This document shows positions 16,894-31,163 of a stretch of DNA of 64,000 nucleotides, one piece after another (within the stretch, counting starts at the first letter, position 1; every line of letters starts with the position of its first letter). Location: assembly GCF_027111355.2 (NCBI RefSeq), contig NZ_CP114291.2, positions 682,001 through 746,000 on the forward strand, given 5' to 3'. The notes under the pieces are model-generated. The model made no database searches, was not told the origin of the DNA, and saw only the letters and a program-made list of their open reading frames with translations. Source of the DNA: Flavobacterium eburneipallidum. Its GTDB lineage: Bacteria; Bacteroidota; Bacteroidia; Flavobacteriales; Flavobacteriaceae. The position numbers and the translations under genes are program-made.

Positions 16894-17661
16894 TTAAATC
16901 CCAAATATAGCTATAGAATTTTCGGTAGTAATGCGTGCTATTTCTTCTTTTGGTAAATTGTAAATTTCAGCTAATTTATCTATCACTTTGATTATATAAC
17001 TGCTTTCATTTCGTTTCCCACGAAAAGGAACTGGAGCTAGATAAGGCGAATCCGTTTCGAGAACAATATGCGTCAAATCAATTTGATTCAAGAATTGATC
17101 TATTTTCCCGTTTTTGAAAGTCACCACTCCGCCAATTCCGAGTTTCATATTATACGAAATGGCTTGTAATGCCTGCTCATAAGTGCCAGAAAAACAATGA
17201 AAAATTCCAAATAAATCAGCCGATTTTTCTTCTTCTAGGATTTCGAAAATTTCGTCGAAAGCTTCTCTACAATGAATCACGATAGGCAATTTATATTCTT
17301 TGGCTAATTGAATTTGTTTTCTAAAAGCATCTTGCTGTTGTGGTAAATGGGTTTTATCCCAATACAAATCGATGCCAATTTCTCCAATAGCATAAAAATT
17401 TCTCTTGGCTAATTCTTCTTCAATATGTTCTAATTCTTCCTGATAATTATCTTTGACATGAGTAGGATGCAAACCCATCATTAGGAAAATATTTTTAGGA
17501 AAAACTTTTTCCAAATCGTACATCGATTGAGTGTAAGCCGAATCAATTGCAGGAATAAAAAAGCGTGAAACTCCAGCATCAATAGCGCGCTGAATCATTT
17601 CGTTACGATCTTCGTCAAATTCGTTGGAATACAAATGAGTGTGCGTATCAGTAATTATCAT
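16894..17661 (-). CDS. tatD: TatD family metal-dependent hydrolase
   Basis: The 255-residue TIM-barrel hydrolase has the metal ligands DTHTHL at residues 5-10, EIGID, HCREAFDE, FHCFSG and ETDSPYLAP. The family are 3'-5' DNases or D-aminoacyl-tRNA deacylase-like enzymes in the cytosol. It is the first gene of the tatD-acyltransferase-ansA row and has a well-formed promoter directly upstream. Confidence 0.93.
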   Translation of the reverse strand: MIITDTHTHLYSNEFDEDRNEMIQRAIDAGVSRFFIPAIDSAYTQSMYDLEKVFPKNIFLMMGLHPTHVKDNYQEELEHIEEELAKRNFYAIGEIGIDLYWDKTHLPQQQDAFRKQIQLAKEYKLPIVIHCREAFDEIFEILEEEKSADLFGIFHCFSGTYEQALQAISYNMKLGIGGVVTFKNGKIDQFLNQIDLTHIVLETDSPYLAPVPFRGKRNESSYIIKVIDKLAEIYNLPKEEIARITTENSIAIFGI

Positions 17662-17679
17662 GGTAATTTATTATTACCG

Positions 17680-17711
17680 CAAAGATACAATCTTAAGGAA
17701 CTAAGTGTCAA
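17680..17711 (-). promoter_or_regulatory. Bacteroidota-type promoter of tatD
   Basis: -33 TTG at 17711-17709, 21-base spacer, -7 TATCTTTG at 17687-17680. Both elements and their spacing fit the TTG/TAnnTTTG consensus reported for Flavobacterium. The ATG is 18 bases downstream. Confidence 0.7.
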
Positions 17712-17810
17712 TTACGAATTAAAAATTACTAATTACGTTGAAAACGAGTGGCTTAAATATTGAAAACGTATTAATTAAATAATTGTAATCACTTAATCAC
17801 TGTTTCTGGA

Positions 17811-19769
17811 TTAAAACTTCCAAATAGCATATAGCTGCACATAATTGAAATTTTCCTCGAAATTCAGTACATATCTTGCTCCTAAACTTGGACCAATTCT
17901 AGCAGCTCCAAGTGTTAAATCGAACAATAGTCCAGTTTTGAAATTGGTAAAAGTTTTGCTGTTTGAAATGGTATTTTCTTCAGTTTTTAGGATAGGAGAA
18001 TCTGGTTTTTCTGACTCGAAATAGTCTATTTTAGTATGTTCTTCTTGTTTTTCTGAAGCGTTAATATTGGCTTGGATACCCGCTCCAATTCCTATAAAAT
18101 TATTGATATTGTATCTAATCAATAGGGGAATTTCGTTATTGATATTGGAATAATTTAGTGTGGTGGTGGTTCGTGTAGGTTGTCTTACTCCATTTGGAGA
18201 GGTTGTAAAACCCGTAGTTATAGTGGTACCGTTATTGTATTTATGGAGACTATTGATTAATTCGGCTTGCCAATAAAAACGATACGCTTTGAAAGGAGAA
18301 ATTGTTGCTCCGACAAAATAACTTTTAGAATTATCTAAACTCGGATAAAAATTATATCCTGCTTTTGCTCCAATAGAAATGCCTGGCGAGAAACGAGTAG
18401 TGGCATAATTGGTAATAATTGGTTCGTTTTTGTCGAAAATAATAGCGGTCCTACTTTTGGTATTTACTTTGTGAAAGTCTTTGTTGAATTTCATCGAATA
18501 TTTGACAAAGCCTTTAGTACTGTCTTTTTCTTTGACATTTTTTTGTTCGCTTCCTGGTAAATAAATGTTTTTGAAGGTAAAGAAAATCTGTTTTTGCTTG
18601 ATAATAGTGTCCAAACAACTAACAGTTGGCTCCTCTTCTTTTGGACAAATCGGACATTTGGGATACATATCTTCAATTTGAAATGTTTTTTTGTCGAACA
18701 TATCCGGAATATCAGTTTCTAAACGAATCATTCTAGCTGGTCCTTCGCCATTATTTTGAAAACGAGTTTTGAAATTCACTCTTTTGAAACGCACCAATCT
18801 GTAATTCATAAAACTGCCGTTCGACCCCATTTTGTTAGGATCATGTGAAGTCACAATTTCCATTTCAAGATTTTTGACTTTATGGTTTTTAAAACTCCTG
18901 TTTGGCACAAATACACTTCGCATCGTTACGGTAGCACTGGTATCTTTAATCATTTCGGGAGTGGTTTTGTGGGTAAAAAACACGTTACGGGTTTCGCCTG
19001 GATTCGCTCCATAAAACTCCAGAATCGTTACGTTTTTGTATGTTTTATAAGCGTCTAATAAAGTAGCGTCCAAATCTATTTCAGTTGTTGTGTTTTTGCT
19101 TTTTTGAACTTTCACCAAGGCGTTTCCAGAAGCCAAATAAGAATCTGAATTTTCCAAATCATCTACAGTTGCTACGAGATTTTCTTTGACTTCTTTCTCA
19201 CCAGCATAAGTTCGGAAATCGATCAATTCGAAATTGTTGTTCTTGAATTGTTTTTCGTTGTAAAAAAGGTATAATTTTCCATCCGTTACGTAGTTTTCCA
19301 TGTTTTGATAACTCACAATAACTTCCATTTCTTGGTCTGGAATGGGGTCAGCATTTTTTTGGATAACCAATCCATTTTGATCTTCAATAGAAGCAATATC
19401 GGTGTAAATTTCTTCCTCCGCAATTTCGTTTACAGCGACTGATTTTGGTCGTGTTGCTGGTGGTTTTCCGTTGTCGTAATTATTGGTTACCGCCAGTTTA
19501 GTTTTGTAAGTTCCTTTATTTTTATAAACGTGTTTGGGTTCGGCTTCTTTGCTGTAATGACCATCGCCCATTTCCCATAAATAAGAATAAAATGGTTTAG
19601 GCGCACCAGCAATAGGGATTAATGGTGGCGTTTCGGGTTTGAATTTTACGGCATTCCCTTTTTGATTATATGTAATATTAGCTCTTCGGGTTACCGTATC
19701 TTTTACTTTGGTTTGCGAAAATGAAAATAGATAAAAGAGAATAAAGAAAAGCGATAGTAGTTTTTTCAT
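17811..19769 (-). CDS. PKD-domain protein with C-terminal outer-membrane barrel-like region
   Basis: The 652-residue protein starts with a signal peptide (KKLLSLFFILFYLFSFSQ). Residues about 50-110 form a PKD domain (YLWEMGDGHYSKEAEPKHVY ... GTYKTKLAV). The middle contains a CPICPKEEEPTVSC cysteine cluster. The last ~180 residues alternate in the way of a PorT-like outer-membrane beta-barrel (ISIGAKAGYNFYP ... FIGIGAGIQANI) and end in LYAIWKF, with a terminal aromatic residue. Likely located in the outer membrane. It lies downstream of a lipoprotein gene, separated by a terminator. Function not recognised. Confidence 0.65.
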   Translation of the reverse strand: MKKLLSLFFILFYLFSFSQTKVKDTVTRRANITYNQKGNAVKFKPETPPLIPIAGAPKPFYSYLWEMGDGHYSKEAEPKHVYKNKGTYKTKLAVTNNYDNGKPPATRPKSVAVNEIAEEEIYTDIASIEDQNGLVIQKNADPIPDQEMEVIVSYQNMENYVTDGKLYLFYNEKQFKNNNFELIDFRTYAGEKEVKENLVATVDDLENSDSYLASGNALVKVQKSKNTTTEIDLDATLLDAYKTYKNVTILEFYGANPGETRNVFFTHKTTPEMIKDTSATVTMRSVFVPNRSFKNHKVKNLEMEIVTSHDPNKMGSNGSFMNYRLVRFKRVNFKTRFQNNGEGPARMIRLETDIPDMFDKKTFQIEDMYPKCPICPKEEEPTVSCLDTIIKQKQIFFTFKNIYLPGSEQKNVKEKDSTKGFVKYSMKFNKDFHKVNTKSRTAIIFDKNEPIITNYATTRFSPGISIGAKAGYNFYPSLDNSKSYFVGATISPFKAYRFYWQAELINSLHKYNNGTTITTGFTTSPNGVRQPTRTTTTLNYSNINNEIPLLIRYNINNFIGIGAGIQANINASEKQEEHTKIDYFESEKPDSPILKTEENTISNSKTFTNFKTGLLFDLTLGAARIGPSLGARYVLNFEENFNYVQLYAIWKF

Positions 19770-19805
19770 AATCTTTTGGTTTAGTTAAGGTTCTAAAAAT
19801 AGAAA

Positions 19806-19830
19806 AAAGTGGTGAGCAAATCACCACTTT
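19806..19830 (-). terminator. Terminator after the lipoprotein gene
   Basis: AAAGTGGTGA and TCACCACTTT with a 5-base loop. On the minus strand the stem is followed by a T run (TTTTTTCT). It separates the lipoprotein gene from the PKD-protein gene. Confidence 0.85.
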
Positions 19831-19852
19831 ATCTAAAAACTTCTATTCTAGG

Positions 19853-20821
19853 CTATTGTATCGCATTGATGGCAGCAACTAATTGGGCTTCTGTTCCTGT
19901 CGTAGTTTCTGCAAGAGTAAAAGAAAAAATATCGTTTGCAGCCACTGTAACCGCTTTGATTCCGTATCGCCATTGTCCATTATCTTCTGTTACAAAAATA
20001 ACGTGGCAAGCCAGTCCTATTGGAATTTGTCCATAATGTTCACTGAATAATCCAGCCGCTGTGTAAGTATCCATATTTGCTAAAGCATTTTGTCCTTCGC
20101 CATCATAAGATAAATATACGGCACTATTTGTATTGTCATATCCATCGGGAGCATCAACAAGAATAGTGGTTTTAGGTCTAGGATCGCTGTAGAATTTGTC
20201 CACATTCGTCCATCCAAAGTTTCCAAACGTCACATAATAGGTATTTCCTTGTGCGCCAACACCACCTTTTCCTCCAGCAGCGTCTCTTACTTCTTTCCAA
20301 GCCAGATTGTCGTTAGTATCTATTTCTCCTTTCCATAAAGTCATGGCATTATCTATTCCGCCAGTTAAATTAGCAGGAACTTGCAATTGTATAGCACCCG
20401 TTGAGACTAAATTTACTCCGCCTTGTGAAGCTTGGATAAAAAATTCTCCTCCCGATTTGAGTAAACTTTTTTTACCATCTGCCATAATTCCCATAGTAGG
20501 TTTGTTGGTAACCAACATCGTTCCTTTGTCGAAAAGTTCAATGTATTCAATGTCAATTGCTCCATTTACGGGAAGTCCGTTTTTAGTAAGAGCATTTCCG
20601 TTAAGTGTGATAACTACTCCTTTTGCTGAAGTTAATGTGATTGTTCCTGTTCCTGCTGTTGCGGTAAAATTTTGAGTATTTTTCTTTATTCCAGATTGTG
20701 TAATTCCTTTGAATGCAGCTGCTGTTGGCGGAATGGGATCCAAATTGTCATTGTTCGTACAACTTGTAAAGAAGATTGTTGCTAAAGCTAAAAGTCCGAT
20801 GTTTTTAATTTGATTTTTCAT
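19853..20821 (-). CDS. Exported lipoprotein of unknown function
   Basis: The 322-residue protein has a lipoprotein signal (LALATIFFTSC, Cys21) followed by an acidic linker, so it is probably anchored in the outer membrane. The body is beta-rich, with TLTSAKGVVITLNGNAL and GAIDIEYIELFDKGTML early on and a C-terminal half containing FGWTNVDKF. The early part is reminiscent of ZU5/carboxypeptidase-regulatory-like folds, but I do not recognise the family firmly. It lies divergent from the ECF sigma gene and is preceded by an ECF-type promoter motif (20855-20883), so it is a candidate target of that sigma factor. Confidence 0.6.
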   Translation of the reverse strand: MKNQIKNIGLLALATIFFTSCTNNDNLDPIPPTAAAFKGITQSGIKKNTQNFTATAGTGTITLTSAKGVVITLNGNALTKNGLPVNGAIDIEYIELFDKGTMLVTNKPTMGIMADGKKSLLKSGGEFFIQASQGGVNLVSTGAIQLQVPANLTGGIDNAMTLWKGEIDTNDNLAWKEVRDAAGGKGGVGAQGNTYYVTFGNFGWTNVDKFYSDPRPKTTILVDAPDGYDNTNSAVYLSYDGEGQNALANMDTYTAAGLFSEHYGQIPIGLACHVIFVTEDNGQWRYGIKAVTVAANDIFSFTLAETTTGTEAQLVAAINAIQ

Positions 20822-20854
20822 AATTTCTATTATTTAAAATGGTTATTTAATTTA

Positions 20855-20883
20855 ATATCAATTCGGGTTTGATATTGTTACCC
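20855..20883 (-). promoter_or_regulatory. Candidate ECF sigma promoter, copy 1 (lipoprotein)
   Basis: Minus strand GGGTAACAA (20883-20875), 13 bases, TTGATAT (20861-20855), 33 bases before the lipoprotein ATG. The element is repeated with identical spacing at 21010-21038. A GTAAC-type -35 and a 16-17 base spacer to GATAT fit ECF promoters in general. Confidence 0.5.
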
Positions 20884-20900
20884 TTTCTTTTAATTTTTTT

Positions 20901-20966
20901 TTATCGGGTAATTAATACCCAAAGTTTACTGACGAATGAGATTCCTATTTTCTTTAAATTTTCCAT
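20901..20966 (-). CDS. Possible 21-codon small ORF
   Basis: ATG at 20966 to TAA at 20903-20901, beginning MENLKKIG and ending WVLITR. Its only support is position: it follows the second copy of the ECF-type promoter motif (21010-21038) by 43 bases. A 15-base palindrome GGGTAATTAATACCC (20906-20920) overlaps its last codons. It could equally be an untranslated leader or small RNA. Confidence 0.25.
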   Translation of the reverse strand: MENLKKIGISFVSKLWVLITR

Positions 20967-21009
20967 AATCTAAAAGTTTTAAAAGTTTCAATTCTTGATT
21001 TATACTGTT

Positions 21010-21038
21010 ATATCAACTTGGTTTTATATTTGTTACCC
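21010..21038 (-). promoter_or_regulatory. Candidate ECF sigma promoter, copy 2
   Basis: Minus strand GGGTAACAA (21038-21030), 13 bases, TTGATAT (21016-21010). Both blocks are identical to those of copy 1, with equal spacing. It lies 32 bases in front of the divergent sigma gene and overlaps that gene's own -7 box (21025-21032). Confidence 0.5.
21025..21032 (+). promoter_or_regulatory. -7 box TATATTTG of the sigma operon
   Basis: Fits TAnnTTTG, 38 bases before the sigma-factor ATG. It overlaps the -35 block of the minus-strand ECF motif, so the two promoters could compete. Confidence 0.4.
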
Positions 21039-21070
21039 CTTTTTTTAGTATTTTCGAAAAAAGTTTTTTT

Positions 21071-21652
21071 ATGGCTAATACGATTCATCCCGACCAAATC
21101 TATATTGAAGGACTTGCTAATAATGATTCAGCAATAATTCAATCTATTTACAAGAAGTTTGTTCCCAAAGTTGTTTCTTATATCAGGAACAATTCTGGCG
21201 ATGAAGATCAGGCTCAAGATGTGGTTCAGGAAATTATGATTTTGCTTTTCAATCAGGCCAAAGCCAATAAATTGCAACTCACTTGCCCCTTTGATGCTTA
21301 CTTTTTTTTATTGTGTAAAAGAAAATGGTTGAACGAAATAAAAAAATCTTCGAATAAAGGGGTAACAATCAATGAAGATTTGGCATCTAATACTGAATCC
21401 ACAGAACAAATGGTTACAGAAACTGAATTGTTCGACGAAAAACAGCAACTTTTTGACACGATGTTTCAAAAACTAGGCGACAAATGCCAAGAGTTATTGA
21501 AATTGAGTTTCACCATCAAATCGATGGAGGAAGTTGCCGAAAAACTCAACGTGACCTATGGTTATGTTCGAAAGAAAAAATCGTTGTGTGTAGGTCAATT
21601 AACCCAGTGGATTCAGGAAACCAATCGCTTTAACTCTTTAAAAATGAATTAG
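21071..21652 (+). CDS. ECF-type RNA polymerase sigma factor
   Basis: The 193-residue protein has region 2 (IIQSIYKKFVPKVVSYI ... QDVVQEIMILLFNQ, residues ~24-70) and region 4 (ELLKLSFTIKSMEEVAEKL, with helix-turn-helix NVTYGYVRKKKSLC, ~140-180), with no sigma 1 or 3 region. Members direct polymerase to GTAAC/GGAAC-type promoters and are held by membrane anti-sigma factors. The next gene starts 2 bases after its stop. Candidate target promoters lie just upstream on the opposite strand. Confidence 0.9.
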   Translation: MANTIHPDQIYIEGLANNDSAIIQSIYKKFVPKVVSYIRNNSGDEDQAQDVVQEIMILLFNQAKANKLQLTCPFDAYFFLLCKRKWLNEIKKSSNKGVTINEDLASNTESTEQMVTETELFDEKQQLFDTMFQKLGDKCQELLKLSFTIKSMEEVAEKLNVTYGYVRKKKSLCVGQLTQWIQETNRFNSLKMN

Positions 21653-21654
21653 TC

Positions 21655-22377
21655 ATGAATGAGGAACGCTACATAGAATTCGACCAATATTTGGCAAATG
21701 AATTATCTGCCGAAGAAAAAATATCTTTTGAAAAACAATTGTCAGAAGACCCAGAATTGGCTACAGCATTTGAAATTTTCAAGGAATTGCAGCTTCATTT
21801 GGACAATAAATTTGGCAATGCCGGAGAATTAAATGCTTTTAAAAAGAATTTAAAATCCATTTCTAAAGATCATTTCAAGATTAAAAAATCAAAAGTGATT
21901 GATTTAAGAGCTTGGCATTATGCCGTTGCGGCTTCTGTGGCAATCTTGTTCGGATTATTTGTTTTTCAGAATATAAATCCATCTTTTGAAGATTACAATC
22001 ATCCCGAAATGGCAAGTTTTGTTGAAAGAGGCGATGTAAGCGAAAATTTAAAATTGGCACAAGATGCCTTTAACACAAAAGAGTATAAAACCGCCATTCC
22101 ATATTTCGAAAATATTTTAAAAGAGAAAAAATCAGCTGAAATTCAATATTTTTATGCGATTTCACTTTTAGAAGATCATCAATTTAAAAAAGCCGAAAGC
22201 AATTTGACTGCATTACAAACTGGAACTTCTATTTATAAAAACAAAGCCACTTGGTATTTGGCTCTTTCTAAATTAAAACAGAAAAAATACAAAGATTGTA
22301 AAGAAATTCTATTGACCATTCCAGATGATTTTGAAGAGTATGACCAAGTGCAACAATTATTAAATGAATTGGATTAA
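21655..22377 (+). CDS. Single-pass anti-sigma-like protein with C-terminal TPRs
   Basis: The 240-residue protein has an acidic cytoplasmic N-terminal segment (YIEFDQYLANELSAEEKISF) like the helical domain of Bacteroidota anti-sigma factors, one membrane segment (about residues 87-106, HYAVAASVAILFGLFVFQNI) and a C-terminal half with two or three TPR-like helix pairs (LAQDAFNTKEYKTAIPYFENIL; YFYAISLLEDHQFKKAESNL). The topology predicts N-terminus inside and TPRs in the periplasm. It overlaps the CHAT gene by 14 bases. Anti-sigma function is inferred from position and topology. Confidence 0.7.
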   Translation: MNEERYIEFDQYLANELSAEEKISFEKQLSEDPELATAFEIFKELQLHLDNKFGNAGELNAFKKNLKSISKDHFKIKKSKVIDLRAWHYAVAASVAILFGLFVFQNINPSFEDYNHPEMASFVERGDVSENLKLAQDAFNTKEYKTAIPYFENILKEKKSAEIQYFYAISLLEDHQFKKAESNLTALQTGTSIYKNKATWYLALSKLKQKKYKDCKEILLTIPDDFEEYDQVQQLLNELD

Positions 22378-24991
22378 ACCCTTTTTGTGTCTAATACTAT
22401 TCCTAAATCTAACTGTTTTTGGACAAAATTCGCTTGCAACAGAAGATCAGATTTACAATGCGATTGATGCTTATGTTGTGAATCCAACCCTTGAAGGATT
22501 GTCAAATTTGACGCAAACGGAACGTAATTTTTGGAAAAACGCTAAACCGAAAATCAAGAATGAATTCCTAGCCATTGTGGTTTTAAATTGCAACAAAGCC
22601 TATTATGAAAATCAATTTGGCAAGACTCATCAAGCCATTTCAAGTTATGAAAAAGCCTGGAAAATTTATCAAAACTACAAACTTTCTAATTATGATATTA
22701 CCGAATATTGTCTGAAACCATTGGGTAATCTTTACACAATTATTGGGGATTTTGACAATGCCGAAAACACTATCAAACAGTATTATTTTATTGCCAATAC
22801 CGATAGAAATCAATCGCAAAAAATTGCAGCTATTCTCAATTTGTCGAATGTGTATCAAAATACAGGTAGAATAAATGAGGCTATTGATTTACTCGAAAAA
22901 AACATTAGAAAGGAGAAACTGACCCCTACGCAAAAAGGAAATTTGTTGAACAATTTGGGAAACAATTATGTATTAAGTTATAAAAATCCAAGTTTGTCCA
23001 AACCTATTCCAGACATTTTCAAAAAACTAGAAGGCTCTTATTTTGCTGCCATTCAGTTATTGAAATCCGACAAAACTCAAAGTGAAACACTGGCGAATTG
23101 TTACCGCAACTTATCGGCATTAAATATCCAATGGCACAACCATGAATTAGCCAATTCCTATTTTGAAAAAGCAAAAAAATATTTCTTTTTAACTGCTAAT
23201 ATTGTGCCTCGAAAACTAGCCAAATTCAAACTGGAAGAAGCTAATTTATTGTTTCAGCAAGAAAAATATTCAGAAGCTAGCACCATTTTATCATCCGTTT
23301 TCAAGACTTTAATCCCCAATTATTCGAGTTCAAAAAATAGTTTTCCTAATGTCAATTCGCTTTATGCAGAAACCATTTTATTGGACGCAATAGACTTGCA
23401 AGCGGAAATTTTTGTGAATCAAAATCAACCCAAAAAGGCGTTGGAAGGATATGCTCTTTCGTTCCAAATAGAAGAGTTGTTCTCGAACTTATTGGTCTAT
23501 GAAAATTCTAAAATCATCAACCAAATTAGAATTAGAAATCGCACCGAAAAGTGCATTGCTATTTATGATTTGTTGCATCAAAAAGAAGGCAAAATCAGTT
23601 ATTTAGAAAAAGCGTTTCAACTTGCGGAACGAACCAAATCGGGTGTTTTGAAAAACTATCTTTCCACCAAAAAAACTACTTCCAGAGAAGAAAAACTGCA
23701 TTTAGAACAATTGCAAAACTGGAATAACGAAATCCTAAAAGAACAACAAAAAGGTGATTTGGCAAACGTTTCCAAAATAAACGAAGCCAATAAAAAACAA
23801 AACGAATTGATGCTTTCGCTAAAGAAAATCAGGTCGAAAAACCAAGTCGATTCAGCTGAAAATTTAGATATAAAAGTCTTGTATTCTAAACTCGAAAAAG
23901 ACAAAGCCATTATGGTGGAGTATTTTTCGGGCTTTGAAAAAATCTATATTTTTACTTTGGCAAATCAAAGAATAAGGCTGAAATACATTTACATTACAGA
24001 CACTGCTATTCCAGAAATAATTTCATTTTTGGATTATTTTAGTGATACTAATAAAATTACAGATGATATTTCGGGTTATAATCATTATGGTAATTCGCTT
24101 TATAAAATGCTGCAATTGCCAATCAATACCACTTACCAAAACCTCGTCATTGTCCCTGATGGATTATTAAATTTCCTTCCTTTTGAAGCCTTAATTACTA
24201 AAGAATCCAACACGACGAATTTTACCCAAATGCACTATTTGCTGCATGATTTCAGGATAGCCTATAACAATTCGGCTAGCTTTTATTTGAATGGGAAATC
24301 CATTTCAAACGATAAAAAATCGGTACTCGGAATTTTTCCCGTTTTCGAAAAAACGAATTATGAATTGACTTTTTCCAAAAAAGAAATGCAATCGATAAAA
24401 AGCAATTTCGATGGTCAGTTTTTTGACAACAAAAATGCTACTTTCGATAACTTTAAAAAGAATGCAAACCATTATTCGATTTTACATTTATCTACACATG
24501 CCAGTTCGGGAGATACTCAAACGTCAGCAAGTATCAAGTTTTATGACCAAGAAATCTTGTATTCCGAGTTGTATAACCTCAATATCAATCCTGATTTGGT
24601 CGTTTTAAGTGCTTGTGAAACCGGAATTGGAAAACTCTACAAATCCGAAGGAGCGATGAGCGTTGCCAGAGGATTTCAATTTGCTGGAGCTCAAAATTTA
24701 TTGTTTTCTCTTTGGAAAGTAAACGATTTTACTACTTCGGTTTTTATGGATAAGTTTTACAGAAACATTAAAAATGACCAATCTTACTTCGAAGCGAATG
24801 CCAATGCCAAACTCGATTTCCTAAATGACGAATCCATTTCGAATGCTAAAAAATCGCCTTATTATTGGAGTGCTTTTGTTTATTATGGTTCAATTGAAAA
24901 GCCAGAAGCACCAACGAATTATTATTTTTATATTATTGGGTTATTGATTGTAATTGGATTATTTTTGGTCTTCAAATACTTTCGAAAATGA
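22364..24991 (+). CDS. Exported TPR-CHAT (caspase-fold) protease with C-terminal membrane anchor
   Basis: The 875-residue protein has a signal peptide (PFLCLILFLNLTVFG), about 500 residues of TPR-like helical repeats, a charged coiled segment (~440-500), then a CHAT domain. The caspase-type dyad is His712 in ILHLSTHASSGD and Cys751 in VVLSACETGIGK, with the supporting MSVARGFQFAGA and SLWKVND motifs intact. A C-terminal membrane segment (IIGLLIVIGLFLVF) ends in KYFRK, placing the protease in the periplasm. It is encoded in one operon with a sigma factor, an anti-sigma-like protein and an aspartic protease, which suggests proteolytic signalling; that role is inferred. Confidence 0.85.
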   Translation: MNWIKPFLCLILFLNLTVFGQNSLATEDQIYNAIDAYVVNPTLEGLSNLTQTERNFWKNAKPKIKNEFLAIVVLNCNKAYYENQFGKTHQAISSYEKAWKIYQNYKLSNYDITEYCLKPLGNLYTIIGDFDNAENTIKQYYFIANTDRNQSQKIAAILNLSNVYQNTGRINEAIDLLEKNIRKEKLTPTQKGNLLNNLGNNYVLSYKNPSLSKPIPDIFKKLEGSYFAAIQLLKSDKTQSETLANCYRNLSALNIQWHNHELANSYFEKAKKYFFLTANIVPRKLAKFKLEEANLLFQQEKYSEASTILSSVFKTLIPNYSSSKNSFPNVNSLYAETILLDAIDLQAEIFVNQNQPKKALEGYALSFQIEELFSNLLVYENSKIINQIRIRNRTEKCIAIYDLLHQKEGKISYLEKAFQLAERTKSGVLKNYLSTKKTTSREEKLHLEQLQNWNNEILKEQQKGDLANVSKINEANKKQNELMLSLKKIRSKNQVDSAENLDIKVLYSKLEKDKAIMVEYFSGFEKIYIFTLANQRIRLKYIYITDTAIPEIISFLDYFSDTNKITDDISGYNHYGNSLYKMLQLPINTTYQNLVIVPDGLLNFLPFEALITKESNTTNFTQMHYLLHDFRIAYNNSASFYLNGKSISNDKKSVLGIFPVFEKTNYELTFSKKEMQSIKSNFDGQFFDNKNATFDNFKKNANHYSILHLSTHASSGDTQTSASIKFYDQEILYSELYNLNINPDLVVLSACETGIGKLYKSEGAMSVARGFQFAGAQNLLFSLWKVNDFTTSVFMDKFYRNIKNDQSYFEANANAKLDFLNDESISNAKKSPYYWSAFVYYGSIEKPEAPTNYYFYIIGLLIVIGLFLVFKYFRK

Positions 24992-25428
24992 ATTACCTTC
25001 CCTATATTCTTAAAAAAGAAAACTACAAAAAAATAAAATTCAAGATTTCTAAAACCCAACATTTGCTCATCAAAGCGAAGATTAATGGCGTGAAAGGTAA
25101 TTTTATTCTGGATACAGGAGCTTCTAACAGTTGCGTTGGTTTTGAAAGTATCGGATTGTTTCAACTCACAGCTAACGATTCTAAAACCAAAGCTTCGGGT
25201 GCCGGTGCAACGGGGATGTTGACACAAACTTCTGTCGGCAATAAACTGCAATTAGGCGATTGGAAATTCCGTGAATTTGATTTGGTGATTTTTGACTTAT
25301 CTCATGTTAATGAAGCTTTGATTGCTTATAAAGCCAAACCTGTTCACGGCATCATTGGTGCCGATATTCTAATGCAAGGTAAAGGAATTATTGATTATTA
25401 CAATCATTGTTTGTATTTGAGAAAATAG
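24988..25428 (+). CDS. Retropepsin-like aspartic protease
   Basis: The 146-residue protein carries a single aspartic-protease half: ILDTGASNS (Asp42-Thr-Gly) and the partner strand HGIIGADIL near residue 127. A single D[T/S]G motif means an active enzyme would be a homodimer, as in retropepsins. No signal peptide or membrane segment is seen, so it would be cytoplasmic. The start ATG overlaps the CHAT stop (ATGA), so it is translationally coupled and the last gene of the sigma operon. It could cleave the cytoplasmic part of the anti-sigma-like protein; this is speculation. Confidence 0.8.
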   Translation: MNYLPYILKKENYKKIKFKISKTQHLLIKAKINGVKGNFILDTGASNSCVGFESIGLFQLTANDSKTKASGAGATGMLTQTSVGNKLQLGDWKFREFDLVIFDLSHVNEALIAYKAKPVHGIIGADILMQGKGIIDYYNHCLYLRK

Positions 25429-25435
25429 AAATAAT

Positions 25436-26215
25436 TTATTTTCGCTTCGAATTTGACTTTTTTGAATTCGTTCCTAATGCCCATAAAAGTCCGCCTGTAA
25501 TATGTTCCAGATATACAGAATTAGTATAATCTTTACTGTCATGACCTAAAGCGGTATAGAAAACTCTTCCGCCTTCAAATTCATGACACCAAGCCAATGG
25601 TAGATAATCGCCAAAAGTGCGTCCAGGATAGACTTCTTTTTCTTTGTCATTGACCGTTCGCATATCGGCTGCTAAAAGGATATGAATATTCGGATTGAAT
25701 TCATTCATATAATAGCACTCATCTTCTTTTTTCCATGTTTCTCCCAGCATCGAAGTAGCAGGATGATTTTTATCAATGACTTTTATTTCGAAAGACTGAA
25801 AAGCAGGATGTCTTTTGAATCTCCCACCGACCATTGTTGCATACCAAGGCCAAGATTTTTCAGAATCAGATGCACTATGAATGCCTACGAAAGCACCACC
25901 AGAATGAATATAATCTACAAAGGCTTGCTTTTGCTGTTCGGTATCAAAAATAGCATTACAAGTATTCGAAAAAATCAGACAGCTGTACTTGGATAAATTT
26001 TCGGTATTCATTACGGCTGGATCATCGGAAACATCCACAATTAAATTGTTTTCTTCGCCAATTTTCTTCCACGCTTCCACGCTAGAAGCAATGTTTTTGT
26101 GTACATAACCTTTACCATTTTTGGTATAAATTAAAATACGTTTTTTAGCTGATGGATTTGCAAAAACAGCACTGAATCCAAAAAAAACAGTGAGTAATAG
26201 TAGCTTAATTTTCAT
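25436..26215 (-). CDS. Exported ThuA-like domain protein
   Basis: The 259-residue protein has a signal peptide (KLLLLTVFFGFSAVFA) followed by a ThuA fold (class I glutamine-amidotransferase-like): KRILIYTKNGKGYVHKN, SGGAFVGIHSASDSE, WPWYATMVGGRFKRHPA, LPLAWCHEFEGGRVFYTALGH and a C-terminal GGLLWALG. ThuA proteins are linked to sugar (trehalose/disaccharide) metabolism, though the biochemical role in Bacteroidota is unsettled. It converges on the retropepsin gene with a 7-base gap; a terminator separates it from bioB. Confidence 0.85.
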   Translation of the reverse strand: MKIKLLLLTVFFGFSAVFANPSAKKRILIYTKNGKGYVHKNIASSVEAWKKIGEENNLIVDVSDDPAVMNTENLSKYSCLIFSNTCNAIFDTEQQKQAFVDYIHSGGAFVGIHSASDSEKSWPWYATMVGGRFKRHPAFQSFEIKVIDKNHPATSMLGETWKKEDECYYMNEFNPNIHILLAADMRTVNDKEKEVYPGRTFGDYLPLAWCHEFEGGRVFYTALGHDSKDYTNSVYLEHITGGLLWALGTNSKKSNSKRK

Positions 26216-26239
26216 GTTTCTTATTTGTTTTAATTTAAA

Positions 26240-26273
26240 AAAAAGCTTCTAACGGTTGTGTTAGAAGCTTTTT
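26240..26273. terminator. Terminator between bioB and the ThuA gene
   Basis: Perfect 14-base stem AAAAAGCTTCTAAC / GTTAGAAGCTTTTT with a 6-base loop. A/T tracts on both sides allow termination in either direction; it most likely ends bioB. Confidence 0.85.
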
Positions 26274-26327
26274 GGTGAGATTCAATACTCTTTTAAACTT
26301 GTTCTTTTTAAACAGTTTGGCTAGTAT

Positions 26328-27413
26328 TTATTTTCCTTTTGTACTAGCTTCTAAATTTCTTTCAATAGTATGACCAGGTCGAGACCATTTTGGTTTTTCA
26401 CCAAGAGGAACAAATTTAGAATCTTCGGCTTCTACAGTTTCTCTTTGCGAGGCTTTAGCAAAAGGTTTTTGATTTTTTAGACCTAACATTTCAAACATTT
26501 TAATATCGTCGTTGGCATCATTATTAGGAGTAGTCAACAATTTATCTCCTGCAAAAATAGAATTGGCTCCAGCCAAAAAGCACATGGCTTGACCCTCACG
26601 ACTCATATTAATTCTTCCTGCTGAAAGACGTACTTGAGTTTCTGGCATCACAATTCGAGTAGTAGCTACCATTCGTATCATTTCCCAAATTTCTACTTGT
26701 TTTTGTTCTTCGAGAGGTGTTCCTTCTACAGCAACAAGAGCATTAATAGGCACTGATTCTGGTTGTGGATTCAAAGTAGCAAGTGCTACTAGCATTCCTG
26801 CACGGTCTTCGATGCTTTCGCCCATTCCGATGATTCCACCGCTACAAACAGTAACATTGGTTTTGCGAACATTTTCAATGGTTTGCAAACGGTCTTCAAA
26901 ACCACGAGTCGAAATAACTTCTTTATAATATTCTTCGGAAGTGTCAATATTGTGGTTGTAAGCATAAAGTCCTGCTTCAGCCAATCGTTGGGCTTGATTT
27001 TCGGTAATCATTCCAAGCGTACAACACACTTCCATATCCATTTTATTGATGGTACGAACCATTTCTAGTACCTGATCAAACTCTTCACCATCTTTTACAT
27101 TTCGCCAAGCAGCTCCCATACATACTCTAGACGAACCGCTAGATTTAGCTCTTAAGGCTTGCGCTTTTACCTGACTAACGGACATTAAGTCATTTCCTTC
27201 AATCCCAGTATTGTATCGTGCGGCTTGTGGACAATATCCACAGTCTTCAGAACAGCCACCTGTTTTTATAGACAATAATGTAGATACCTGAACCACATTT
27301 GGATCGTGATGTTCTCTATGAACAGTTGCTGCTTCGAAAAGCAAGTCCATCATGGGTTTAGTATAAATTGCAATAATTTCTTCTTTCGTCCAGTCGTGTT
27401 TTTTGATACTCAT
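26328..27413 (-). CDS. bioB: Biotin synthase
   Basis: The 361-residue radical SAM enzyme inserts sulfur into dethiobiotin. The [4Fe-4S] motif is GGCSEDCGYCPQ. MGAAWRNVKDGEEFDQVLEMV, EVCCTLGMI, YNHNIDTSEEYY, GIIGMGE and the Arg in VRLSAGRINMSREGQ are as in the family. It lies about 17 kb from bioFDA, so biotin genes form at least two units here. A well-formed promoter lies 21 bases upstream. Confidence 0.97.
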   Translation of the reverse strand: MSIKKHDWTKEEIIAIYTKPMMDLLFEAATVHREHHDPNVVQVSTLLSIKTGGCSEDCGYCPQAARYNTGIEGNDLMSVSQVKAQALRAKSSGSSRVCMGAAWRNVKDGEEFDQVLEMVRTINKMDMEVCCTLGMITENQAQRLAEAGLYAYNHNIDTSEEYYKEVISTRGFEDRLQTIENVRKTNVTVCSGGIIGMGESIEDRAGMLVALATLNPQPESVPINALVAVEGTPLEEQKQVEIWEMIRMVATTRIVMPETQVRLSAGRINMSREGQAMCFLAGANSIFAGDKLLTTPNNDANDDIKMFEMLGLKNQKPFAKASQRETVEAEDSKFVPLGEKPKWSRPGHTIERNLEASTKGK

Positions 27414-29069: not shown

Positions 29070-31163
29070 TTATTCTTTGATGAATTTTAAGGTTCGTTTT
29101 TGTCCATTTTTCACAATAGTAATAAAATAGACTCCCTTACTCAAACTCGAAGTATTGATAACTAAATCGGCTTCTTTGGTAACTTCTTTTTGACTCACTT
29201 TTTGACCCAACGCGTTGTTGATGTTAAAACTATTTGGCAGACCAAAATCATTTGGGATAAGGATATTCAACAAGTCTTTGGTCGGATTTGGAAATAAGTA
29301 AATATCGCTAGAAGTTTCGAATTCGTTTGTTCCAAGTGAACCAATGGTAAAAGTATATTTAGCAATAGATTTAAAATTAGTTCCAGAGGTCAAAAGAGTG
29401 CCATCTGTAGCTTTGATATCAAAATATCCACTACCACTACTGCCACAACAGATGCCATCTCCTTGAGAATCGTTTATGGTAAAAGTATAGCATTTATTAT
29501 TAGGCAATGTCCAATTTTCAGTTATTAAATCAGGTAATGGTAGAGCATCTTTATCAGTGTAAGAACCACCACTATATAAAACTGCACCAGAACCGTCTTT
29601 GAGATTCCATGTGGTTTCACTTCCCCATAAGTCTTGTTGCAATCTAAATACATAATTGGTGTAAGAATAATTTGTTGCAGATGTTGGAATAACAAAACTT
29701 CCAGATATTGAATTGTTTGATGCTCTTTGATCGGTAACTCCATTTGCGGTGACAATAGCGGCATTGAAAGTTCCGTTTGCTGTTGCATTAATGGTAATGC
29801 TAAATACAGCTGATTGATTTGGAGCTAGGTTTCCATTCCAATTATATACCGTGTTTCCTCCACCATTGATATTATAATTAATCGTTGCAGCTGTTAAATT
29901 ACTCGTTCCTCTATTATAAATAATTACTTTTTTTAAAGCTTGGTTGGTCGAAGCACCACAAACGGGAACGTCGCAACTCGACTCGAGTTTTAGTTCTGCA
30001 TCATTGGCAAACAAGGCTATTGGACTATTTTTGGTAGATGTTTTCAGGGTACTTCTTCGTGCTGCACTATTGATAATAGTGGTCATTCTATCTTTTTGAT
30101 TTTGCGTAAAAATGTTCATACAAGCATCGTTTGTATAATCCATATAGTTTTCAGGCATATCATTTCCAGCTACTAACGGACAAGTATCAAAAGTGCCACA
30201 AGTGAAATGTTCCCATCCTACTTGAGGAGTATCAGCACAATAATCAGTAGCGCTACAATCGGGTGTGTTAGCATCTTGATCGCCATCACCATCGCCCCAA
30301 ATATGTCTTAATCCCAACCAATGTCCTACTTCATGAGTCATTGTTCTTCCTCTATCATAAGGAGATTGCAATAGAAAGCTATTGTTTGTATCATAAGCTC
30401 TACTTCCAAACACACTGTAGTTAGAAACCACTCCATCTGTATTAGCACTTCCGCCTGAATTATCAAGTCCTTGTAGTCCAGAAGCATCTGGAAATTGAGC
30501 ATAGCCTAATAGTTGACTGTCAGCAAATTGCACGCTCCACATGTTCATATATTGTGTTGGATCCCAAATAGTAATTGGCTTTACGGTAGAATTAATTTCT
30601 GTTTCTCCCCAAGCGTCTTGGCACAAACTCACACGGTCAATTCCGTTGGTCGGGTTTCCGTTTGGATCTACTTGTGCCAATGCAAACTGAATTTGAGTAT
30701 CAGTTCCCACAGCATTGTTGTTAAAACCAGGAGTTCCTGCTAATCTTCTAAAATCTTCGTTCAATACAGTAATTTGCGAAAGTACTTGTGCATCCGAAAT
30801 ATTAGGTGCAACTCCAATGGCTTGTCCGTTATAAATCACGTGAACTACTACAGGAATAGTAATAATCCCACCCGATTGGGAACTGGTTCTCAATGCTTTT
30901 TGTTTGTTGACCAATGGGGACAGCCAAGCCTCAAACTGTGTTTCTGTTAGCCTTTTTGGATTTTTTGCTTGAAGCGATTTTTCATATTCGGTTGTAGCGC
31001 AACGAATAATTCCATTGTTTGGATTTGTCTTTCCGCTACTTACAGGAACACCAAATAGTGTTTTTGAGTTTGATTTTTTTTCTTGAGCGTAACTATTATT
31101 TAGTATGAAAAAGAACAGAATTGCAATAATTTTATAAATAGAATTTGGGGAAATTTTTTTCAT
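29070..31163 (-). CDS. Secreted M43 (pappalysin-like) zinc metalloprotease, T9SS cargo
   Basis: The 697-residue protein has a signal peptide (IIAILFFFILNNSYAQ), a propeptide-like region, then the catalytic domain with the extended zinc motif HEVGHWLGLRH (residues 277-287) and the downstream Met-turn NYMDYTNDACMN, which place it in M43. Two CARDB/PKD-like beta regions follow, and the last ~80 residues (IYLFPNPTKDLLNI ... GVYFITIVKNGQ ... KFIKE) are a type A T9SS sorting domain. It is predicted to be an extracellular or surface protease. A TAAATTTG -7 box is at 31190-31183. Confidence 0.92.
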   Translation of the reverse strand: MKKISPNSIYKIIAILFFFILNNSYAQEKKSNSKTLFGVPVSSGKTNPNNGIIRCATTEYEKSLQAKNPKRLTETQFEAWLSPLVNKQKALRTSSQSGGIITIPVVVHVIYNGQAIGVAPNISDAQVLSQITVLNEDFRRLAGTPGFNNNAVGTDTQIQFALAQVDPNGNPTNGIDRVSLCQDAWGETEINSTVKPITIWDPTQYMNMWSVQFADSQLLGYAQFPDASGLQGLDNSGGSANTDGVVSNYSVFGSRAYDTNNSFLLQSPYDRGRTMTHEVGHWLGLRHIWGDGDGDQDANTPDCSATDYCADTPQVGWEHFTCGTFDTCPLVAGNDMPENYMDYTNDACMNIFTQNQKDRMTTIINSAARRSTLKTSTKNSPIALFANDAELKLESSCDVPVCGASTNQALKKVIIYNRGTSNLTAATINYNINGGGNTVYNWNGNLAPNQSAVFSITINATANGTFNAAIVTANGVTDQRASNNSISGSFVIPTSATNYSYTNYVFRLQQDLWGSETTWNLKDGSGAVLYSGGSYTDKDALPLPDLITENWTLPNNKCYTFTINDSQGDGICCGSSGSGYFDIKATDGTLLTSGTNFKSIAKYTFTIGSLGTNEFETSSDIYLFPNPTKDLLNILIPNDFGLPNSFNINNALGQKVSQKEVTKEADLVINTSSLSKGVYFITIVKNGQKRTLKFIKE

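Follow-up and report, generated by a model that had tools for sequence, protein, structure and literature searches.

In a stretch of 64,000 nucleotides from Flavobacterium eburneipallidum (contig NZ_CP114291.2, positions 682,001 to 746,000; referred to here as the window), four genes on the plus strand at 21071..25428 encode an extracytoplasmic function (ECF) sigma factor, a single-pass anti-sigma-like protein, a TPR-CHAT peptidase and a retropepsin-like aspartic protease. A preliminary description had treated these four genes as one functional operon. Comparison with relatives indicates that a conserved unit is real, but that its boundaries had been drawn wrongly, as the divergent genes at 17811-20821 are part of the same unit as the sigma, anti-sigma and CHAT genes and the order seen in the window is not conserved. 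We consider it fairly probable that the unit is a one-locus envelope sigma switch, in which the released sigma factor would drive a divergent operon that carries a promoter-like motif and includes CHAT, while the retropepsin would merely be a co-transcribed neighbor and the arrangement in this species would be the product of an inversion.

Gene products and co-inheritance of sigma, anti-sigma and CHAT

The 193-residue product of the first gene (21071..21652, +) belongs to the ECF superfamily according to NCBIfam TIGR02937 (sigma70-ECF; E 7.6e-17, 61.4 bits against a cut-off of 42.9, residues 25-179), while the Pfam scan matched region 2 alone (Sigma70_r2, 2.8e-6). Two bases further downstream begins the gene at 21655..22377 (+), whose product we infer to act as the anti-sigma factor. 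TPR-type models, hydropathy and a structure model assign to it N-terminal helices within residues 3-74 (predicted cytosolic), a membrane helix at 87-104 and TPR helices at 129-239 (predicted periplasmic), which is the layout of a membrane anti-sigma factor, and the gene is sigma-adjacent in the loci drawn. Hydropathy gave a single above-threshold segment near residue 86, NCBIfam anti-sigma models matched weakly and below their cut-offs, and the best 50 Foldseek matches of the model were TPR proteins only. The modelled loop 115-128, just outside the membrane helix, contains a basic residue, Arg125; among 39 homologs, with identities as low as about 20%, 34 have Arg or Lys at this position, which is mostly followed by Gly or Ser.

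The third gene (22364..24991, +) overlaps the anti-sigma gene by 14 bases and encodes a protein with a signal peptide, TPRs, a CHAT domain (PF12770, 2e-46, 159.2 bits) and a C-terminal anchor, predicted to be a periplasmic peptidase anchored in the inner membrane. Its His/Cys dyad, His712 and Cys751, is invariant in 27 of 27 aligned CHAT proteins, the most distant of which is 21% identical to that of the window. Hydropathy segments were found at the N-terminus (7), at the C-terminus (855) and, marginally, within the CHAT domain (594). Used as a query against its own genome, the protein gave one match at E <= 10; PADLOC assigned it a generic TPR model alone, and no solved structures other than TPR-type proteins were found with its profile among the best 60 of 208 matches. 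The retropepsin gene follows with an ATGA overlap. Up to this point the preliminary description was accurate: an ORF re-check reproduced its coordinates, the 2-base gap and both overlaps exactly, domain scans and hydropathy agree with its four protein assignments (ECF sigma factor, single-pass TPR anti-sigma-like protein, exported TPR-CHAT, leaderless DTG retropepsin), and the intact dyad that it reported is borne out by the alignment.

To follow the genes through relatives we used a family sample of 100 genomes from 100 genera, own genome included, a genus sample of 398 genomes for the junction search described below, and 121 genus genomes for the CHAT, anti-sigma, retropepsin and motif counts. 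CHAT loci were accepted at E <= 1e-20 in the family and CHAT orthologs at E <= 1e-60 in the genus, where the cut-offs were 1e-10 for anti-sigma homologs and 1e-20 for the retropepsin. Neighborhoods were drawn for 60 loci around CHAT or sigma matches and for 80 named loci, the named relatives being mostly Flavobacterium among the best 120 matches. Sigma orthologs were present at 75 loci, 74 with both sigma and CHAT and one without CHAT, with some species represented twice (e.g. L190/L110 and L197/L123).

Of the 100 family genomes, 16 carry the sigma ortholog and 17 the CHAT ortholog; both are present in 15, sigma only in one and CHAT only in two. The sigma-only case (G058) lies on a contig of 4.8 kb that stops short of CHAT; of the CHAT-only cases, one (G051) contains a stop and is truncated, and the other (G089) lies at a contig edge. 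One further genome (G003) with a sigma match of 78 bits containing stops was left out of the count. A related sigma gene was located within 9 kb in 51 of the 60 family CHAT loci, three more had only a related anti-sigma gene and six had neither, where about 0.5% would be expected for a random gene; this count covers all CHAT and all sigma places but only 39 anti-sigma matches. Even among the remote CHAT loci, 36 of 43 have a sigma gene, and no retropepsin was seen adjoining CHAT in those drawn. The co-conservation on which the four-gene proposal depended thus holds for sigma, anti-sigma and CHAT (15 of 16 sigma genomes with CHAT) but not for the retropepsin, which is spread far wider.

In the genus, 44 of the 121 genomes have a CHAT ortholog and 48 an anti-sigma homolog. 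F. johnsoniae strain CI04 (L189) is also a carrier of the locus. Three genus genomes outside the 44 (loci L167-L169) lack CHAT as well as the lipoprotein and PKD genes described below at the locus. There, fused frames (L167:7005-7976, L168:7026-8051 and L169:6339-7292) join an N-terminal part of sigma to a C-terminal part of anti-sigma, as expected if the pair loses its use along with CHAT.

Gene order, inversion and the place of the retropepsin

The usual order in relatives runs from a TatD-family gene through anti-sigma and sigma, all pointing left, to a divergent series pointing right that consists of a small protein (about 99-200 residues, where present), a lipoprotein, a PKD/DUF7849 protein, CHAT and the retropepsin. 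CHAT and sigma occupy opposite strands in 73 of the 74 loci that hold both, the sole exception being the window. Flipping the anti-sigma-sigma-lipoprotein-PKD block of the usual order reproduces the window order exactly. When the genus genomes were searched with a 381-base query across the anti-sigma/CHAT join, with two candidates scored per genome, 121 of the 398 matched one or both halves and only the window matched the whole; the other matches run no more than 22 bases beyond the anti-sigma stop, and their CHAT half is located elsewhere. At the junction (22375..22390) homology to the anti-sigma genes of relatives ends at the stop and CHAT homology begins just after it. The CHAT N-terminus has changed accordingly, from MVKNIFYLLL.. 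or similar in close relatives to MNWIKPFLCL.. in the window, and the start and first codons derive from the anti-sigma 3' end.

A block inversion in this species has therefore joined the two halves and shifted CHAT and the retropepsin into the sigma/anti-sigma operon. The changed N-terminus and the uniqueness of the join mark the 14-base overlap as a scar of that event, and the idea that anti-sigma and CHAT are translationally coupled by conserved design was rejected. Neither does the four-gene operon hold up as a conserved unit, its anti-sigma/CHAT join being confined to this genome. In G161 (L104, L172) and at L186 the block has similar palindromic or inverted stretches at both of its ends, in the anti-sigma/TatD and the PKD/CHAT intergenic regions, which would be a plausible substrate for inversion. 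Separately, sigma, anti-sigma and CHAT are co-directional in three remote systems (L246 from Kordia, L259 and L260), so that an arrangement like that of the window is possible.

The retropepsin (24988..25428, +) has 146 residues and no leader. It carries a single domain of the D-T/S-G type (PF13650, Asp_protease_2; 2.1e-11, 44.8 bits), with a DTG that starts at residue 42 and is conserved without exception in the 21 aligned sequences; no membrane segment was found by hydropathy, and PADLOC matched it to PDC-M08B (2e-7). With its single DTG and its length it resembles the retropepsin-like proteases of clan AA (PF13650, TIGR02281, ApRick), including an ApRick profile match at E 3.4e-4 over 42 positions, and differs from them in the missing membrane segment and in a TIGR02281 score under the cut-off.

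Its distribution sets this gene apart from the other three. The retropepsin is present in 95 of the 100 family genera and in 102 of the 121 genus genomes, compared with 44 of 121 for the CHAT ortholog. It lies directly beside TatD in 19 of 20 family loci without a CHAT ortholog, the twentieth (L161) beginning at a contig end; these 20 genera come mostly from the top of the retropepsin match list, are not a random sample and include several with a remote CHAT elsewhere. At L160 the retropepsin was placed by homology match, the ORF caller having picked an overlapping ORF. All 14 genus loci examined that lack the module show the same adjacency, among them that of the closest retropepsin relative (L166, 87% identical). 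TatD itself (16894..17661, -), the usual left flank of the locus, is mostly beside anti-sigma where the module is present and beside the retropepsin where it is absent. The module is therefore flanked by two old neighbors, one of which is the retropepsin. Given its presence in 95 of the 100 genera and its place next to TatD where the module is missing, the retropepsin is probably a bystander, and a role as core component was rejected on these grounds. Co-transcription would nevertheless be common, since the gene was found at 67 of the 75 sigma-ortholog loci.

The promoter-like motif and the divergent operon

The motif GGTAACA-N14-TTGATAT was derived from two near-identical repeats that precede the lipoprotein gene; it lies on the minus strand and is usually preceded by an additional G. 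Copy 1 (21010..21037, -) points toward a micro-ORF and the lipoprotein gene, and copy 2 (20855..20882, -) lies 61 bases before the lipoprotein start. A looser pattern, GGTAACA-N13-15-NTGATAT, has only two matches in the 3.85 Mb genome, both at the locus, and its reversed control has none. In a zone that reaches from 60 bases within sigma to 340 bases ahead of it, the strict motif was found toward the divergent operon in 54 of the 75 sigma-ortholog loci and toward sigma in none, and autoregulation of sigma through its own motif was rejected. All 66 sites are equal in length, though the pattern allowed three lengths. The copy nearest to the gene is mostly 58-114 bases before the start, with further copies up to about 400 bases away.

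Of 129 motif sites across the 121 genus genomes, 103 are no more than 8 kb from the module, 20 are elsewhere in module genomes and six are in the 76 other genomes, while the reversed control gave three sites in total. The locus contains the motif in 42 of 45 module genomes, a set from which four anti-sigma matches were excluded (G148, G176 and G195 as joined remnants, G157 as weak). Its position, fixed spacing and co-occurrence lead us to infer that the sigma factor recognizes this motif. Sites off the locus at G105:C11:457316, G141:C1:2847391 and G148:C21:414745, near-identical in G187, G162 and G182, may indicate a second target.

The pattern extends to distant systems. Where CHAT and sigma are divergent and no more than 4 kb apart in remote loci, 11 of 14 such loci have GGTAA[CG] ahead of the CHAT operon, with 0.7 expected from base shuffles, and one of 14 has it pointing toward sigma; remote loci of other arrangements are near chance (three of 22, with 1.4 expected). 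By inspection, a short lipoprotein-like gene opens several of the remote CHAT operons. As the motif stands ahead of the CHAT-side operon in relatives, CHAT is a likely target of sigma; ancestrally it would have been controlled by the sigma factor of the locus, whereas in the window it no longer has its place behind the motif.

The lipoprotein (19853..20821, -) has a Cys21 that is invariant in 36 aligned sequences, a predicted ZU5/GAIN-like domain (46-212) and a beta-sandwich (214-309); Foldseek gave no safe match for it. ZU5/GAIN proteins have an autoproteolytic site motif, H-x-S/T, and reading the translation by eye we found two His residues, neither of them before x-S/T. ZU5/FIIND proteins of animals act together with caspases; here the gene for the predicted ZU5/GAIN-like lipoprotein shares a unit with that of a caspase-like protease. 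Next to it, the exported PKD-DUF7619-DUF7849 protein (17811..19769, -), which in relatives is encoded on the same strand as CHAT and upstream of it, is a putative outer-membrane barrel, judging from its sequence.

A micro-ORF of 21 codons (20901..20966, -; MENLKKIGISFVSKLWVLITR) occupies the interval between the two motif copies and starts 71 bases past the start of copy 1. A scan of 147 loci found nine copies of such short ORFs ending in W..ITR, spread over eight loci. Each copy is divergent from sigma, eight of the nine have the motif at a distance of 69-73 bases upstream, and at L118 two copies stand in tandem. The six copies of 21 residues show no length changes, and their differences fall mostly on the third codon position (78 vs 50 and 46). 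Because nonsynonymous codon differences outnumber synonymous ones (90 vs 44), the case for coding is moderate. No Rfam family matched at gathering score over 17500-26500. Outside the unit, the product encoded at 29070-31163 (-) is exported, resembles metalloproteases and, as judged by eye, probably has a C-terminal signal for type IX secretion.

Proposed circuit, rival readings and related systems

In the circuit that we propose, the ECF sigma factor would be held by the single-pass anti-sigma factor, with the TPR domain (fold and topology predicted) toward the periplasm. Once freed, sigma would transcribe the divergent operon from GGTAACA-N14-TTGATAT and thereby produce small exported proteins or the 21-residue micropeptide, the lipoprotein with its predicted ZU5/GAIN-like domain, the PKD/DUF7849 envelope protein and TPR-CHAT, with the retropepsin as a housekeeping neighbor that is co-transcribed only. 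The role that we favor for CHAT, tentatively and at somewhat less than even odds, is feedback by cutting the anti-sigma factor in its conserved Arg-Gly/Ser juxtamembrane loop; alternatively, it could process other envelope products of its own operon. Bolder, and rather unlikely to hold as a whole, is a generalization to a CRISPR-free envelope caspase-sigma circuit throughout Flavobacteriaceae and reaching other Bacteroidota, with TPR-TPR docking, a cut after Arg/Lys and before Gly/Ser, and a sigma factor that makes more CHAT and ZU5-like lipoprotein, in which the triad would be old and type III-E CRISPR one derived use.

The most serious competitor, which we rate as quite possible if a little short of even, has CHAT as an effector only: ordinary envelope proteases would trigger the sigma/anti-sigma pair, and CHAT would process the lipoprotein, the PKD protein or outside substrates. 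The placement of CHAT on the motif-bearing side in 73 of 74 loci, the usual site of output genes, agrees with this, as does the short lipoprotein-like gene kept with CHAT behind a GGTAA site in several remote systems; the linkage of CHAT to sigma and anti-sigma even where lipoprotein and PKD homologs were not seen, together with the basic loop residue kept in 34 of 39 anti-sigma homologs, speaks against it. The model of the preliminary description, in which CHAT outside and the retropepsin inside cut the anti-sigma factor from both faces of the membrane, could draw on the abutting or overlapping genes, on the retropepsin at 67 of 75 sigma-ortholog loci and on two intact active sites. It is nonetheless highly improbable given a retropepsin in 95 genera against a sigma ortholog in 16, its seat beside TatD in genomes without the module, and the remote CHAT loci that have sigma in 36 of 43 cases with no retropepsin seen adjoining CHAT in those drawn; the partner role proposed for the retropepsin has weak support at best from its distribution and synteny, and cleavage from the cytosolic side found no support.

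That the window order stems from misassembly, with the ancestral order in the real genome, might be suspected from its uniqueness among 398 genus genomes and from the repeats at both block ends in two relatives. We hold this to be improbable, as the genome is a single contig of 3,845,436 bases with 99.94% completeness, the junction is not a repeat and CHAT takes both its start codon and the codons that follow from the 3' end of anti-sigma. A defense module against phages or mobile elements, acting by abortive infection through a caspase-like protease, would fit the PDC-M08B match of the retropepsin and the patchy occurrence in the genus (44 of 121), but across genera the module mostly occupies the same chromosomal site, close to TatD and the retropepsin, CHAT is exported and has envelope partners, and PADLOC found only a generic TPR model for it, so that we regard this reading as very unlikely.

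The closest known parallel to the proposed circuit is type III-E CRISPR. In such systems an RNA-guided RAMP effector activates the CHAT protein; a search with the RAMP family PF03787, which covers Cas7-11, gave no match in the F. eburneipallidum genome at E 0.001, while four of 14 control genomes matched. In the type III-E system, the TPR-CHAT protease Csx29 cuts Csx30 in a flexible loop, which its authors propose to relieve inhibition of an ECF-like sigma factor with sites in its own locus (PMC10028731). The locus described here likewise combines TPR-CHAT, a putative inhibitor and an ECF sigma factor with predicted sigma sites in the locus, so that the idea of CHAT acting on the anti-sigma factor has a precedent by analogy in Csx29 and Csx30; in contrast to that system, the circuit would be RNA-free and act in the envelope, CHAT is predicted to be exported and anchored, the inhibitor to be membrane-bound with its TPRs outside, and the operon encodes envelope proteins. 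A single-pass anti-sigma factor with an outer domain, paired with an ECF sigma factor, also resembles the RseA/DegS/RseP system (described in part in PMC10028731), from which the locus differs in that the linked protease is a caspase-like CHAT rather than a PDZ serine protease and its cleavage is putative.

Control of the envelope by ECF sigma factors has been described in Bacteroidota for PorXY-SigP and for the SM6/T9SS regulon of Flavobacterium psychrophilum (PMC9723704). SM6 was rejected as the identity of the present motif, which, unlike SM6, ends in TTGATAT and is confined to one locus in its own genome. One survey gives a nearby recognized class I anti-sigma domain for 6% of Bacteroidetes ECF sigma factors, compared with 32% on average (PMC7406223). 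No description of this locus was found among the papers listed by searches of open-license PMC papers; this ECF group may possibly be listed already in the existing ECF classification.

A recurrent pair comes here with a sharp candidate promoter, a closed regulon of small size and a caspase-like protease linked to it, a combination that makes the path from signal to sigma testable in a laboratory Flavobacterium. If the proposed circuit is true, control of sigma factors by CHAT proteases would extend beyond CRISPR.

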